This document shows positions 18,513 to 60,500 of a stretch of 64,000 nucleotides of DNA, piece after piece. The notes beneath the pieces were generated by a model that saw only the letters and a list, made by a program, of their open reading frames with translations, was not told where the DNA came from and searched no databases. Each line of letters starts with the position of its first letter. Positions within the stretch are counted from its first letter, which is position 1. The stretch spans positions 1-64,000 of the forward strand of contig NZ_AXWW01000021.1 of assembly GCF_000482865.1 (NCBI RefSeq), given 5' to 3'. The DNA is from Actinokineospora inagensis DSM 44258. GTDB lineage: Bacteria > Actinomycetota > Actinomycetes > Mycobacteriales > Pseudonocardiaceae. Both the position numbers and the translations under genes were made by a program.

Positions 18513-19214
18513 ATGCGCGCGGTGATCTTCGACTGGGGCGGCACGCTGACCCCGTGGGTGACCATGGACCACCTGGCCGCATGGCGGGCGTACGCCGACG
18601 TCATCCACCCCGAGGACGTCACCGCCGCCGTCGCCCTGGCCGCCGCTGTCCACGCCGCAGAACAAGCCGCCTGGCTGCGCGTTCGCGACCACCACACCGC
18701 GTTCACCCTCGCCCAGGTGCTCGACACGGCCCACGCCCCCGTCACCGAAGCGGCCCTGCTCGCGTTCCGCGCCTACTGGGACCGGGCCACCCACACCGAC
18801 CCCGAGGTCGCCCCGCTGCTGACCGCCCTCCGCGAACGCGGCCTCCGCACCGGCATCCTCTCCTCCACCGCCTGGCCCGCCACCTGGCACGACGAGGTCC
18901 TGGCCCGCGACGGCGTCCTCCACCTCTTCGACGCCCGGATCTGGAGCAGCGACCTCCCCCACACCAAACCCCACCCCGCCGCCTTCAAAGCCGCGATGGC
19001 CGCCCTCGACATCACCACCCCCACCGACTGCGTCTACATCGGCGACCGCCCCTACGACGACATCACCGGCGCGAAAGCGGTCGGCATGCGCGCCATCCTC
19101 ATCCCACACAGCGACATCCCGCCGTCCCAACAGGTCCCCACCACCGCCACCCCCGACGCCACCCTCCACCGCCTCTCCGACCTCCCCACCATCCTCGACC
19201 GCTGGCTCCCCTGA
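18513..19214 (+). CDS. HAD-superfamily hydrolase
   Basis: A 233-aa protein. Motif I is VIFDWGGTL (nucleophile Asp followed by Trp, Gly), motif II is in GILSSTAWP and motif III/IV is in HTKPHP and YIGDRPYDDITGAKAVG. This is the subfamily I cap arrangement with helices from about residue 15 to 85. Likely a small-molecule phosphatase. TAGGGT (18500-18505) sits 7 nt before the ATG with no Shine-Dalgarno, suggesting a leaderless transcript. It is in the insertion between tsaE and tsaB. Confidence 0.85.
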   Translation: MRAVIFDWGGTLTPWVTMDHLAAWRAYADVIHPEDVTAAVALAAAVHAAEQAAWLRVRDHHTAFTLAQVLDTAHAPVTEAALLAFRAYWDRATHTDPEVAPLLTALRERGLRTGILSSTAWPATWHDEVLARDGVLHLFDARIWSSDLPHTKPHPAAFKAAMAALDITTPTDCVYIGDRPYDDITGAKAVGMRAILIPHSDIPPSQQVPTTATPDATLHRLSDLPTILDRWLP

Positions 19215-19220
19215 CCCGGC

Positions 19221-19383
19221 TGTCCACAACCGACACAGCCATCCACAGCCCGGCCGCTGGGCTCTTGACAGGTCGTGTTTCGCGTTATTGTCAGGAATGG
19301 GCCCCGGTGCCCCGGGTGGGCGGGCTCCTGTCTGGACCACGGCGGCGTTTCAGTCAAGCGTGTGGTGGGTCCCGATCGGTTGA
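19221..19383 (+). repeat. Promoter/micro-ORF repeat, copy A
   Basis: The first 126 bp (19221-19346) match copy C (19860-19985) with only two differences. In order: 'tgtccacaaccgacacag' and 'ccatccacag' boxes, TTGACA (19265-19270), a 15-bp spacer, TATTGT (19286-19291), then 'cagga' and ATG at 19297. The ATG opens a 28-codon frame (19297-19383) starting MGPGAPGGRAPVWTTAA. After 19346 a one-base length difference from copy C shifts the frame, although GTCAAG is kept in the DNA. Confidence 0.8.
19297..19383 (+). CDS. Putative leaderless micro-ORF, copy A (28 aa)
   Basis: Starts MGPGAPGGRAPVWTTAA and ends VWWVPIG. The ATG is 5 nt after the TATTGT hexamer, a distance that would place transcription at or next to the start codon. 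The two base differences from copy C inside the frame (GGT/GGC and CCT/CCC) are both synonymous. It may instead be a non-coding RNA with a chance frame. No family recognised. Confidence 0.3.
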   Translation: MGPGAPGGRAPVWTTAAFQSSVWWVPIG

Positions 19384-19408
19384 GGTTGAGCGGGTTGGTT
19401 GTGCACAG

Positions 19409-19545
19409 GTTGTCGAGCTGTCCACAGCTCCAGGCCATCCCCTCTTGACAACCCGCGACCCGCGCTATGTTCAGGAATGGGCCCCCGGCCCCCGGGTGGG
19501 CGGGCTCCTGTCTGGGCTCCGGTGGCTGGAATCGTCAAGCCGCAC
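19409..19545 (+). repeat. Promoter/micro-ORF repeat, diverged copy B
   Basis: Diverged copy with a 'ctgtccacag' box, TTGACA (19445-19450), the same 15-bp spacer, TATGTT (19466-19471), 'cagga' and ATG at 19477. The frame starts MGPRPPGGRAPVWAPVAG and keeps I-V-K-P at GTCAAG. The block encoding PGGRAPVW is almost unchanged at DNA level. The frame stays open to 20013, entering copy C in the same frame, which may be chance. Confidence 0.7.
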
Positions 19546-19859
19546 AATCGGATGAACGTTGGGCTTGCTGTCGCCTACCACGCGGTCGTCCGCCATTGCT
19601 TCGCGTGCTGGCCGCTGCCTCGCGTGTCCGCCGCTCCTAGGCGCCGGCTGCCGCCGCGTCGTGCTGGTCTCCGCTCCGCGCTTCCGTGCTGGCCGCCGCA
19701 TGGTGTCCGGCGCTGGTGCACGTGCTCGGCGATGGTTCGCGTGGCCGTTTTGTCTGTTGTTTCGTGTACCCGCTCTTGGCTCGTGCGTGCGCTGTTCGCA
19801 CGTGCGTTTCGTGTTGCCTCGAAGCCGCTGTTGGCGCGTGTGACCACAGCTTGCCGTGT

Positions 19860-20013
19860 TGTCCACAACCGACACAGCCATCCACAGCCCGGCCGCTGGG
19901 CTCTTGACAGGTCGTGTTTCGCGTTATTGTCAGGAATGGGCCCCGGCGCCCCGGGTGGGCGGGCTCCCGTCTGGACCACGGCGGCTGGAGCTGTCAAGTG
20001 TGCGAACGGGTGA
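19860..20013 (+). repeat. Promoter/micro-ORF repeat, copy C
   Basis: Near-identical to copy A over 126 bp. TTGTCCACA-type box at 19859, TTGACA (19904-19909), 15-bp spacer, TATTGT (19925-19930), 'cagga', ATG at 19936. CTTGACA at the left and TGTCAAG (19992-19998) near the right end form an inverted pair. It faces the 3' end of the convergent acyl-CoA synthetase gene, so it cannot be a leader for a downstream same-strand gene. Confidence 0.8.
19936..20013 (+). CDS. Putative leaderless micro-ORF, copy C (25 aa)
   Basis: Starts MGPGAPGGRAPVWTTAAGAV and ends KCANG before a TGA. It lies under the same TTGACA/TATTGT signal as copies A and B. Whether it is translated is unknown; the alternative is a small RNA. 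Confidence 0.3.
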   Translation: MGPGAPGGRAPVWTTAAGAVKCANG

Positions 20014-20063
20014 GGGCGGTGAAAGTCGGTGCTCGGGCTGGGGCGGTTCGCGGGAGGGGTGTG

Positions 20064-21476
20064 TCAGGGGCGGGTGAGGGCGCGTTTGGTGACTTTGCCG
20101 AGTTCGTTGCGGGGCAACGCGTCCAGGTAGTGGACAACTCGGGGGCGTTTGTGGGGGGCCAGTAGTCGTGCTACGTGGTTGGAGAGGTCTTCGGGTGGGG
20201 GGTGGGGCGTTGTGGTGACCACCCAGGCCACGATCCGTTCGCCGAGGTCGTCGTCGGGTTCGGCGGTGACGGCGGCTTCGAGGACGGCTGGGTGTTCCAG
20301 GAGGGCGTTTTCGATTTCGCCCGCGCCGATTTTGTAGCCGCCGCTTTTGATGAGGTCGGTGGCGCGGCGGCCGACGATGCGGAGGTAGCCGTCGGGGTCG
20401 CGGGTGGCCATGTCGCCGGTGCGGAACCAGGTGGCGCGGAAGGCGGCTGCGGTGGCGTCGGGGCGGTTGAGGTAGCCGAGGAACAGGTTGGGGCCGCGGA
20501 CCTCGATCTCACCGATCTCCTCGCCGGTCACGGGGGTGCCGGTGTCGTCGACCAGGCGGACGTCCACGCCGTCGACCGGGGGGCCGACGGTGCCGGGGCG
20601 GCGGTCGCCGCTGGCGCGGATCGCGCAGTTCATCAGGGTCTCGGTCATGCCGTAGCGCTCGACGACGTGTTGGCCGGTGGTTTCGGCTAGGCGGGCGTGG
20701 TCGGCGGCGGGGAGGGCGGCGGAGCCCGAGACCAGCAGGCGGGCCCGGCCGACGGCGGCCGCCAGGGTCGGGTCGGCCGCGCAGTCCGCGGCGAGCCGGT
20801 GGTACATGGTCGGCACACCGAACATCACCGTGGCGTCGCCCGCCAGGGCCGCGCCGATGGCGGCGGAGTCGAACCGGCCCAGGTGCCAGACGGTGCCGCC
20901 GCGGCGCAGGGGGCCGAGCACGCCGAGGATCAAACCGTGCACGTGGAACAGCGGCAGCGCGTGCACGACCGTGTCCGACGACGTCCACTCCCACGCGTCC
21001 GCCACCGCGTCGAGGTTCGACGCGATCGCTCGGCGCGGGAGGAGGACGCCCTTGGGTGGGCCGGTCGTGCCGGACGTGTAGATGATGAACGCGGGCTCCT
21101 CGGCGTCCGGCTCCGGCGGCAGCGGGCCTGCACCGGGGCCGACCGGGGGGCGCGGCAACGACGCCAGCGCGGGCGGGAGGTCGACGTCCGGTGCCGCCAA
21201 CACCAGGTCGGGCGCGCTGTCGGCGACGATGTGCGCCAGCTCGCGTTCCCCGGTCTTCGGGTTGACCGGCACCACGGCCACCCCCGCCGCCAACGCCCCC
21301 ACGACGGCCAGGCACGTGTCGACGGTCGGGGTCGCCCACACCGCGACCCGGCGGGCGCCCGCGAGCGCGGCCGACGTGGCCCGCGCGGACCTGGCAAGCT
21401 CGTCGTAGGTCACCGCCGTCGTCCTGAAGCGCAGCGCGACGCGGGCGGGCGGATCGGCCAGAGCAGGCAGCAGCAC
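20064..21476 (-). CDS. Acyl-CoA synthetase (malonyl-CoA synthetase / FadD36-like)
   Basis: A 470-aa AMP-forming ligase, shorter than typical FadD proteins. P-loop-like IIYTSGTTGPPKGV near residue 133, ERYGMTETLMN near 270, WFRTGDMA, the hinge region RRATDLIKSGGYKI and the C-terminal catalytic Lys in LPRNELGKVTKRAL. The compact length and the RYGMTET-L-MN signature suit the MatB/FadD36 group that activates malonate or similar short acids. GTG start with TAGGGT (21484-21489) 7 nt upstream and no Shine-Dalgarno: leaderless. In the tsaE-tsaB insertion. Confidence 0.88.
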   Translation of the reverse strand: MLLPALADPPARVALRFRTTAVTYDELARSARATSAALAGARRVAVWATPTVDTCLAVVGALAAGVAVVPVNPKTGERELAHIVADSAPDLVLAAPDVDLPPALASLPRPPVGPGAGPLPPEPDAEEPAFIIYTSGTTGPPKGVLLPRRAIASNLDAVADAWEWTSSDTVVHALPLFHVHGLILGVLGPLRRGGTVWHLGRFDSAAIGAALAGDATVMFGVPTMYHRLAADCAADPTLAAAVGRARLLVSGSAALPAADHARLAETTGQHVVERYGMTETLMNCAIRASGDRRPGTVGPPVDGVDVRLVDDTGTPVTGEEIGEIEVRGPNLFLGYLNRPDATAAAFRATWFRTGDMATRDPDGYLRIVGRRATDLIKSGGYKIGAGEIENALLEHPAVLEAAVTAEPDDDLGERIVAWVVTTTPHPPPEDLSNHVARLLAPHKRPRVVHYLDALPRNELGKVTKRALTRP

Positions 21477-28510: not shown

Positions 28511-28554
28511 GGTTGGGATCGGCGGGTCCCGAGGCGCGTGGGGTGGGTTGGCGG

Positions 28555-28650
28555 CCTTCGTCGATGTTGGGCGGCTTTTTTTGAGGCGTGCGGTGTGGGG
28601 GTGGTGCTTCGTCGATCTGGGCTGGCTTTCTTGGGGCGCGTGGGGTGGGA
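28555..28650. repeat. Second array of the ~47-51-bp 'cttcgtcgat' repeat
   Basis: Two cores, ending at 28565 and 28616 (51 bp apart), with 'gcggtgtgggggtgg' before the second and T-runs after the first. They match the array at 1-270, so this repeat family is dispersed in the genome. Confidence 0.65.
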
Positions 28651-28735
28651 GTGGGGATGGCGAAGGGCCCGGTGGGGTGTGGTGACCGGGCCCTTGCGTG
28701 TGGGGTGGGTGCGTGTGTGCCGTGCGTGTGGGGGG

Positions 28736-57568: not shown

Positions 57569-60500
57569 GTGGCACTACCGACGCAGCTGAACCCGACCGA
57601 ACAGGACGCCCTGGTCAAGCAGATCGGTCTGGCGCTGCTGCGCGGCGCCCCGCAGCGGTGGGCGTCCATCGTCGTCGAGTACCGCGCCCTCGGCCGCTAC
57701 CTGGAGACCACGGGCAAGGTCACCCTGCAGGACGAGACCGCGGCCGAGCTGCCGGTCTCCCCCGACATCGCGATGCTGTTCACCCGGCTGCGGGCGGGCA
57801 TGTACCGGGAGGGCCGGGGCACCTGGTTCAACGCCCGCTACCAGCTCGACCAGCCGTCGGCGTACAACCTGGAGTACGACCGGGACGAGCCGCCGTGGGC
57901 CGCGCCGCCGCCCCCGCCCGCCTACGCCGACGACCTGCGGATGTTCCCCCGCGAGGAGGAGAACGTCCCGGAGTGGCTGACCCGCCGGATGGCCGCGCTG
58001 AAGCCGCCGTTCCGGGTGGCCCGGATCTTCGACGGCAAGGGACCGACCGGTCCGCTGGTCAACCGCCCGCCGGTCGAGGACGGTGAGCGCGACGCCGTCC
58101 TGCGCTACCTGGACGACGCGCCGCTCGCGCTGCCGCACCGGGGCGTGGACACCGACCACATGGACCCCGACGGCCGCCAGGGCGTGCCGGTCGCCTTCCA
58201 CACCGACGGCGTGTGGATCTGGCCCGCCGCGGTGAACTACTACCTGCGCGTGCACGGGGTCGCGCCGGAGCCGGAGCTGGTCGACCACATCCGCCGGTCG
58301 GAGTTCACCCTCCCGCAGGTCGAGGAGCACGTTCGGGCCAACGCGGCCGCGTTCCTGAACCGGGGTAGGCCGCCGCGACCGCTGCCGGTCAACGGCACCA
58401 ATGGCACCAACGGCGTGTCGGTCCCGCCCGAGCCCAACCAGCCCCGCCTGCCCGACCCGCGCTCGGTCCAGCCGAAGGTGACCGCGGGCGCCCCGACTGA
58501 GCTGCCCGTGCTGCCCGAGCTACCGGCTGAGGTAGCGCTACCGGAGTCGGCGGCGCGTGCGCCGGAGGCCCCGTGGCTGCCCGACGCCGAGCCCGTCGAG
58601 GACCGCGCGGGTACGGCCGACATCGCCAGCGCCTTCGTCAACGCCGGTGAGCGGGGCTCGGTCGCCCCTTCCAAGAACCCCACTGTGCCCAACCCGCCCA
58701 ACGAGCCCACCGAGTCCGGGCAGTTCGGCACGGCCTTCGACGCGTTCAGCCCCGCGCCGGTGAACGTGGAGAACCCGCCCCCGTGGTCGCGGACCCCCGC
58801 GCAGGAGCAGGCCTGGGCTCCCGCCGAGGTCGAGCCCGCCGAGACCCCGTGGACGCCCGAGGCCCCGGAACCGGCGGTCGGCCAAGCCCCCGAGTCGGCC
58901 GCGGGCCCGACCTACACCGAACCCCGCAACGGCCACTCCCACGGCGACCCGCACGACGCTGTCAGCGCCGTCAACGCCGCCGAGCCCGCCCCCTGGGAAC
59001 GCGCGCCAGAACACCCCCTCGACGTCGGCACCCCCGCCGCCGAGCCCACGGCCCCCTGGCAGCGCCAGACCGAGCCGTGGCAGCCGGAGGAGGAGAGCAC
59101 CGCCCCGTGGCAGCCGGTCGCCGAGAGCGGCACCTGGCAGGCCGACCAGGGGCAGCCCTGGAACGCCCCCGAGCCGCCCGTCGACCAGTCGTGGCAGCAG
59201 CCGGTGGACCAGGCCCCGTGGCAGCCCGTCGGTGGCGACCAGCCAGGCCTCCCCGTCGCGCCGGACCAGCCCGTGTGGCAGCCGGAGCAGACCCACCACG
59301 AGCGACAGCCCCAGCACGGCGAACCCGCGCCCCAAGACCAGCCGAACGGCACGTGGCAGCCCGAGCAGGCCGCGCCCGCCCGCCACGAGAGCGAGCCGTG
59401 GCAGCCGCAGGAGCCCCCGACCGCGTGGCAGGCCGACCAGGCGCCGCAGCACCAAGAGCAGCCGACGTGGCAGCCGGACCCGCCCCAGCAGCCGGTGGCC
59501 GACCAGCCCGCGCAGTTGTCCTGGCAGCCCGAGCCGCCCGCCGACCAGCCTCCGCAGTCGCCATGGCAGCCCGAGCAGCCCGTGAACGCTGCTGAGCAGC
59601 CTGCTCAGCAGCCTTGGCAACCCGCGAACGTCGCCGACCAGCCCGCGCAGTCGCCGTGGCAGCCCGCGGATGTGGCCGACCAGCCTGCCCAGCAGCCTTG
59701 GCAGCCGGAGCAGCCCGCGAGCGCCGCCGACCAGCCCGAGCAGTTGTCGTGGCAGCCGGGGAACTCGGCTGAGCGGCCCGCTTGGCAGCCTGAGCAGCCG
59801 GTGAACGCTGCGGACCGGCCCGAGCAGTTGCCGTGGCAGCCGGAGCAGCCCGCGAATGCGGCTGACCAGCCCGCTCAACTGCCGTGGCAGCCCGAGCAGC
59901 CGGGGAACTCGGTTGATCAGGCCGCCCAGTTGCCGTGGCAGCCGGAGAACCCCGTTGAGCAGCCCGCCTGGCAGCCTGAGCAGCCGGTGAATGGTGCCGA
60001 CCAGCCCGTCCAGCCGTGGCAGCCGGGAAATACGGCTGACCAGCCTGCTCAGCAGACCTGGCAGCCTGAGCAGGCCCACGCGGCCGACCAGCCCGTCCAG
60101 CAGCCGTGGTTGCCCGAGCAGCCCGTGAGTGCGGCTGAGCGGCCTGCCCAGTTGCCGTGGCAGCCCGAACAGCCTGCGACCGTGGCCGACCAGCCCGTCG
60201 AGCAGTCGTGGCAGCCGGAGCAGCCGGTGAGTGCGGCGGATGGACCCGCGCAGCCGCCGTGGCAGGCTGAGCAGGCGGTGAACGCCGGCGAGCAGTCCGC
60301 TCCGCAGTCCTGGCAGTCGGAGCAGGTCCCGGCCGCTCGGCAGGACACCGACCAGCCCCAGCAGTGGCAGGCCGAACCCGTGCCCGCTGCCCGCCAGGAG
60401 CCCGAGGTCCCGTGGCAGCCCGAGCAGGTTCCCGCCGCGCGTCAGGAGCCCGACCCGGTACCGCCGTGGCAGCCCGAGCAGGCTGCGCCGCAGTGGCAGC

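Follow-up and report, generated by a model that had tools for sequence, protein, structure and literature searches.

A dispersed repeat with a predicted promoter in Actinokineospora

The three blocks examined here, found in a 64,000-nucleotide stretch of Actinokineospora inagensis DNA (hereafter the window), are copies of a dispersed intergenic repeat of Actinokineospora measuring about 130 bp. We consider it probable, at roughly 60%, that they are non-coding, promoter-bearing elements from which a short untranslated G-rich RNA is made under a DNA-uptake programme. In the scheme that we propose, once the DNA-uptake and recombination programme is on, an activator, either DnaA or a regulator with a DnaA-like site, would act on a pair of boxes; transcription would start near the purine of an (A/G)TGGG motif, and the short G-rich product would stay untranslated. 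Lineage-specific amplification together with tandem duplication appears to have spread the copies, whose mobility is read from their distribution. These elements point to a regulon that may contain more non-coding repeats than genes, which makes the role of such repeats testable. Genomes are designated below by G-numbers, G000 being the genome of the window, and the loci compared by L-numbers.

All three copies lie on the + strand, between a HAD-like open reading frame (ORF) ending at 19214 (+) and an AMP-ligase-like ORF at 20064-21476 (−), both named by eye. The two ORFs converge on the blocks and the next gene past copy C is therefore on the opposite strand, in agreement with the preliminary description, which had noted that no same-strand gene follows. 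Copy A extends from 19220 to 19348, limits that were obtained by pairwise extension of copies and that correspond to the −45 to +84 consensus (relative to TTGACA) of the G011 and G005 copies; copy B extends from 19399 to 19528 and copy C from 19859 to 19987. Copy B thus begins at its first box, at 19399, and not at 19409 as initially proposed. What had been described as a TCCACA-rich box is in fact a pair of 9-mers 19 bp apart: CTGTCCACA and CCATCCACA in copy A (19220..19247), TTGTGCACA and CTGTCCACA in copy B (19399..19426), and TTGTCCACA and CCATCCACA in copy C (19859..19886). This TTGTCCACA-like pair, with 9 to 11 nt between the 9-mers, was found in all three copies with 0 or 1 mismatch; box 1 of copy C is the exact TTGTCCACA and every other box in the window has at least 1 mismatch. 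Within the 64-kb window, box pairs with up to 2 mismatches are confined to the three copies.

Direct reading of the sequence located TTGACA at 19265..19270, 19445..19450 and 19904..19909 in copies A, B and C, respectively, followed after a 15-nt spacer by the −10-like hexamers TATTGT (19286..19291), TATGTT (19466..19471) and TATTGT (19925..19930), and, 5 nt further, by an ATG (19297..19299, 19477..19479 and 19936..19938). This layout is as first described, and the deduced peptides open as stated. A GGGnGGGnGGG run, GGGTGGGCGGG, comes next in each copy (19314..19324, 19494..19504 and 19953..19963), and GTCAAG, a 3′ end common among the copies of the window genome, stands at 19353..19358, 19534..19539 and 19993..19998. 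Copies A and C are 98% identical over 126 bp (19221-19346 and 19860-19985), and the two differences, GGT/GGC and CCT/CCC, are indeed both synonymous in the proposed frame. A sigma-70 scan of positions 19100-20150 that allowed spacers of 16 to 18 bp returned no promoter, the gap between TTGACA and the hexamer being 15 bp in the elements. A tRNA scan and an Rfam scan at gathering score found nothing within the window. At 19300-19316, as in other copies of the same type, the sequence reads GGNCCCCGGNCCCCGGG, in which both N seem by eye to be the same base in many copies (C/C, G/G or A/A).

Size, spread and anatomy of the family

The preliminary description had suggested searching the whole genome and its relatives. 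A fixed pattern, TTGACA-N15-TAnnnT plus a G-rich start with up to 2 mismatches, matched 104 copies in G000, 46 in G011, 20 in G005, 5 in G006 and 5 in G015; the remaining 11 of the 16 genus genomes had no copy, and the reversed pattern matched 0 times in all 16. A narrower pattern matched in 3 of 297 genomes of the family, all three within the genus, and in 0 of the 281 family genomes outside it. A scan of one genome per species (84,980 species, which may omit records of the window's own genome) yielded 54 stretches, all from Actinokineospora terrae, A. globicatena or A. diospyrosa. By DNA search, 23 places were found in the window genome, the query's own included, along with weaker matches in relatives. 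A sequence model of these type I elements, R1, had matches at E ≤0.01 in 15 of the 16 genus genomes, with at least 144 in G000 and at least 111 in G012, counts that are lower bounds because 150 candidates were scored per genome; G008 had no match among its 150. We found no description of this repeat or promoter in a partial collection of the literature.

After removal of 2 duplicates out of 170, 168 distinct type I copies were gathered (100 from G000, 39 from G011, 19 from G005, 5 from G015 and 5 from G006), one of which was removed from the distance, entropy and G-quadruplex (G4) analyses (n = 167). Similarity between copies mostly ends at −45 and +83/84 from TTGACA in G011 and G005, and more variably in G000. 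The parts follow one another in a set order: two DnaA-box-like 9-mers starting near −46 and −27, TTGACA, 15 nt, TAnnnT, 5 nt, (A/G)TGGG, and a GC-rich stretch that closes with GGGnGGGnGGG in 159 of 167 copies. The 3′ end is GTCAAG in many G000 copies and GTTGATC(A/T)TGG in many others. We rejected the idea that this 3′ motif acts as a DNA uptake signal, since TTGATC(A/T)TG, with 42 occurrences in 256 kb of G011, 19 in 136 kb of G005 and 11 in 404 kb of G000 among the loci compared, is hardly commoner than the elements themselves.

A promoter layout shared with comEA, recA and other genes

The box pair is not limited to the repeats. A search at exact spacing found it in 24 of 41 genomes, against 0 for the reversed control, with 72 pairs in G000 and 187 in G015 (A. 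diospyrosa), and many pairs sit about 50 nt ahead of a gene start. comEA is preceded by a pair with up to 2 mismatches in 13 of the 16 genus genomes, G000 among them; G010 has one only at 3 mismatches, and G014 and G001 have none. For recA, a pair with no more than 1 mismatch was present in 12 of 16, only the proximal box being found in G000, G004, G008 and G002. When 3 mismatches were allowed, shuffled sequence produced a single match among 130,272 positions. The distance from the end of box 2 to TAnnnT is 38 bp in 12 comEA promoters and 39 bp in 1 (n = 13), 39 bp in 12 of 12 recA promoters, and 38 or 39 bp in 164 of 168 elements, hexamers having been sought 34-42 bp from box 2 at comEA and recA and within 37-41 bp in the elements. 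The start codon lies 51-52 nt from box 2 at comEA and recA, and the corresponding triplet 49-50 nt from it in the elements. Given this common geometry, which is our central result, the element carries what looks like a natural-competence and recombination promoter. The recA promoters also contain a GTCGG-like stretch ahead of TAGCGT, which resembles the PafBC RecA-NDp motif. By eye, that motif was not seen in the window family, and the box pair sits further upstream; the RecA-NDp promoters compared here are those of PMC6789036.

For a survey of other genes with the box pair, 23 ORFs were picked from 52 loci (L179-L230); 20 were run against Pfam and 10 against NCBIfam, three of the latter against NCBIfam alone. 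L179-L182 and L203 lie outside the family but within the order, L198-L200 and L202 belong to the family but not to the genus, and all the remaining loci are from the genus. Profiles identified ComEA-type HHH+SLBB proteins (L186, L198, L212, L223 and L224), a single-stranded DNA-binding protein, SSB (L202 with Pfam; L226 and L228 with NCBIfam scores short of the cut-offs), SAF/CpaB-like proteins (L210 and L222; L203 matched only RcpC, below cut-off), an Ssd/CpaE protein (L179, TIGR03815 above cut-off), an NlpC/P60 protein with M23 (L180), an AAA domain (L182), a histidine phosphatase (L220), a beta-lactamase fold (L225), and two proteins encoded on the − strand, DUF4192 (L181, 402-1451) and DUF5319 (L199, 1073-1450). 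No family was returned for L189, L194, L200 and L208 by Pfam or for L230 by NCBIfam. Individual loci, some of them outside the genus, have the pair ahead of ssb, Flp-pilus and DUF4192 genes. From this gene content, we infer that the box-pair genes form a DNA-uptake and recombination regulon. The layout supplies a specific sequence as a candidate for the control of DNA uptake in an actinobacterial group, tied to recA and to DnaA-type boxes, and genes of unknown function that carry the pair, such as those for DUF4192 and DUF5319, become candidate uptake genes. The DUF4192 and DUF5319 genes and those of an unassigned 'FPHGVAR' family (L181, L199, L194, L200 and L230) have the pair some 50 nt upstream of their start and are possible members of the uptake regulon.

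According to PMC4285127, TTGTCCACA is a high-affinity DnaA box in Streptomyces coelicolor and Mycobacterium tuberculosis, which makes DnaA a candidate activator. The same listing, together with the 72 and 187 exact pairs of G000 and G015, also speaks for sites of DnaA titration or replication at which the pair would bind DnaA and the rest would be incidental. Such sites would need neither a −10 hexamer at 38-39 bp nor G-tracts, yet both are kept, and the pair also precedes comEA, ssb and recA. Since the promoter geometry is kept, we rejected titration as the only function, and regard this explanation as very unlikely indeed.

The micro-ORF is best explained without translation

The preliminary description had proposed a leaderless micro-ORF, and a micro-protein MGPxxPGG(R/W)AP does find some backing in the alignments. 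An ATG is present in 100 of 100 G000 copies, and ATG or GTG in 167 of the 168 type I copies, although A/G-T-G was part of the search pattern, with mismatches allowed; single-nucleotide codon differences between copies are synonymous in 57% of cases vs 33% expected, the copies not being independent; and the putative start stands at nearly the same distance from box 2 as the starts of comEA and recA. Against translation, the start codon is missing in 5 of the best 12 of at least 111 G012 copies (ACG, AAG, TCG, TCG and nothing in its place), in the syntenic copy L169, in which AAG replaces it while TTGACA, TAnnnT and the G-tracts are kept, and in 45 of 48 elements of a related type II (see below), in which neither ATG nor GTG stands 3-7 nt past the hexamer. 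Nor is any frame-0 stop conserved across type I copies, the stops being scattered. Constraint is blind to codon phase: wobble positions 23 and 26, outside the search pattern, are each invariant in 166 of 168 copies and wobble positions 14 and 17, within it, nearly so, while positions 9, 10, 12, 24 and 28 vary. In comparisons within one species, variability at the third codon position barely exceeds that at the first (0.51 and 0.48 bits of entropy, respectively, in G000, 0.28 and 0.30 in G011, 0.19 and 0.12 in G005). We rejected the micro-ORF on the lost start codons, the scattered stops and the phase-blind constraint, the synonymous excess being counted on the side of coding, and judged that the frame arises incidentally where GGG follows a purine start; a leaderless micro-protein is extremely unlikely. 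Judging from the sequence, the ATG of copy A more likely belongs to a transcription start region than serves as a start codon. Of the mobile small-peptide or small-RNA family suggested earlier, the multi-copy, mobile-looking character and the promoter-like head are retained, a small RNA is kept as a candidate in view of the strong promoter layout, and the small peptide is abandoned.

The predicted transcript is G-rich and lacks covariation support

A covariance analysis of the RNA had also been suggested. RNAalifold predicted 8 pairs from 45 sequences, 0 of them with both sides changed, and a folded RNA has no support from covariation. No Rfam family was found for the element, whether at gathering score in the window or at E ≤5 in 18 loci of relatives, in which the three matches (L185 181-249, L236 2665-2737 and L191 1108-1171) all lie away from the elements. 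The L185 match, on the + strand, is to the Rfam ASpks antisense sRNA model and scores 52.7 against a gathering score of 52.

The G-tracts raise the possibility of a recombination site opened by transcription through a G4 or R-loop, on the model of the gonococcal pilE G4 with its cis-acting sRNA. A loose G4, G3-N(1-14)-G3-N(1-7)-G3-N(1-7)-G3, occurs on the non-template strand just past the start in 161 of 167 type I copies, vs 4.7% of shuffles, and in 40 of 48 type II elements, a count without shuffle control; the promoter, moreover, is common to recA and uptake genes. Pointing the other way, a tight G4 with all loops ≤7 is present in only 40 of the 167 type I copies, the second tract is intact in 32 and broken in 16 of the 48 type II elements, and the GGGnGGGnGGG run was not seen by eye in a third group of elements (L187, L190 and L206). 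The pilE precedent (PMC3547852) is alike in that the RNA begins in a G-rich tract in a recombination context, and unlike in being one locus, against hundreds of copies with imperfect predicted G4 potential here. We consider such a site very unlikely. A broader form of the idea is a long shot: most promoters of an uptake regulon controlled by DnaA boxes would stand on hundreds of geneless elements, both in Actinokineospora and, by way of type II, in further genera of the family, elements whose G-rich transcription in cis would open the chromosome to RecA, making them induced recombination sites during transformation.

Genomic position and conservation of the copies

The downstream neighbour is on the opposite strand for 102 and on the same strand for 61 of the 163 copies for which a downstream gene was called, a distribution that is not that of a promoter driving a protein gene and that bears out the earlier remark that the block is not an ordinary leader. 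Copies are in excess between converging genes, where 51 of 147 lie as against 123 of 553 pairs of adjacent genes (odds ratio 1.86, p = 0.003), and scarcer between diverging ones (17 of 147 vs 109 of 553, p = 0.02); these counts cover copies with a called neighbour on both sides, take tandem copies singly and use our own simple gene calls at the same loci. In pneumococcus, an excess between convergent genes has been read as a mark of mobile, parasitic repeats (PMC3049150), and a parasitic MITE- or BOX-like repeat, in which the uptake promoter would be a captured part of no use to the host, is an explanation that we regard as possible but doubtful. In keeping with it, subfamilies and copy numbers are lineage-specific, and G000 has tandem arrays in exact 180-bp steps, such as the six copies with differing linkers at L009 10335-11235 (G000:C4:165283-166234). 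The 100 copies of G000 have no two-sided syntenic partner among 68 copies of four other species, and the element is absent from the orthologous loci of G005 and G011, which also have the AMP-ligase gene. At the other 11 loci orthologous by the HAD gene that were compared, there was no element and one box pair, in L056. In L052 and L053, the G005 and G011 orthologues, a small gene that looks ricin-lectin-like by eye lies between the HAD and AMP-ligase genes, at the position of the window copies.

Other features argue against a purely parasitic origin. Although dispersed non-coding copies are what a MITE would show, no terminal inverted repeats were seen by eye in the consensus ends of G011 and G005, and a CTTGAC/GTCAAG pair of G000 falls, at its 5′ side, within the element; the best candidate for a target duplication, 11 of 38 2-mers vs 6.4 expected, was the best of many tried and is no real signal. 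Eleven copies of the four other species form seven two-sided syntenic pairs, so some copies have been kept in place. Within species, the mean distance between copies is 0.36-0.65 in the linkers and 0-0.02 in TTGACA and the −10, the constancy of TTGACA, the −10, (A/G)TGGG and CCCCGGG being partly a matter of how copies were selected because these motifs were in the search pattern; in the second and third G-tracts, which were outside it, the distance is 0-0.04. Across the seven syntenic pairs, differences affect 2 of 189 positions in the motifs vs 68 of 168 in the linkers, a contrast that is an upper estimate because most motif positions served to find the copies and three of the pairs make up one triple. 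Promoter and G-tracts thus appear, from these comparisons, to be held by selection while the linkers drift.

Related elements beyond type I

Type II elements have the boxes, TAGACTGG and then GGG(G)..CCCCCC..GGGYGGGG. A core pattern for them matched 25 of the 61 genomes scanned, from 12 of the 44 genera and always within the family, with 143 matches in G000 and 145 in G016, a genome of another genus; single matches may be chance, because the reversed pattern matches 4 genomes, one each. Among the loci, 52 distinct matches were found, 48 of them with a TAnnCT hexamer, while three of the four lacking it (L234, L242 and L250) look like chance matches. A proximal TCCACA-like box lies 36-42 nt before the hexamer in 43 of the 48, and under a stricter rule a box pair 18-20 bp apart was found in 26 of the 52. 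L046 and L196, which combine TTGACA and GTGGG with the body of type II, seem to stand between the two types. The third group, which occurs in A. diospyrosa (G015), G005 and G009, has boxes, TAGnnT, a G-run and GTTGATCTTG at most copies seen.

Comparison with known systems

The elements resemble the pneumococcal BOX, RUP and SPRITE repeats, which, according to PMC3049150, are small intergenic repeats with many copies and a narrow host range, likewise enriched between convergent genes, some of them transcribed, with an early link to competence genes, and are judged parasitic in Streptococcus pneumoniae. By description, they differ from these repeats in carrying a promoter with comEA and recA geometry; stem-loops are predicted for the pneumococcal repeats, whereas no covariation was found here. 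Natural transformation in Micrococcus luteus is a second point of likeness, as uptake there depends on comEA in a high-GC Gram-positive bacterium. The 2026 paper on that system (PMC12849477) states that what lies upstream of competence, signals or a regulatory cascade, still has to be identified, and gives no promoter motif, the word 'motif' not occurring there, in contrast to the box-pair promoter seen here in Actinokineospora.

Other repeats were noted in the window. Two tandem arrays, at 91-288 and 28531-28654, have related-looking units of 46 to 50 bp and possibly represent another dispersed repeat family, and a long repetitive stretch at 59497-60491 is built of units of 42 to 54 bp and longer.
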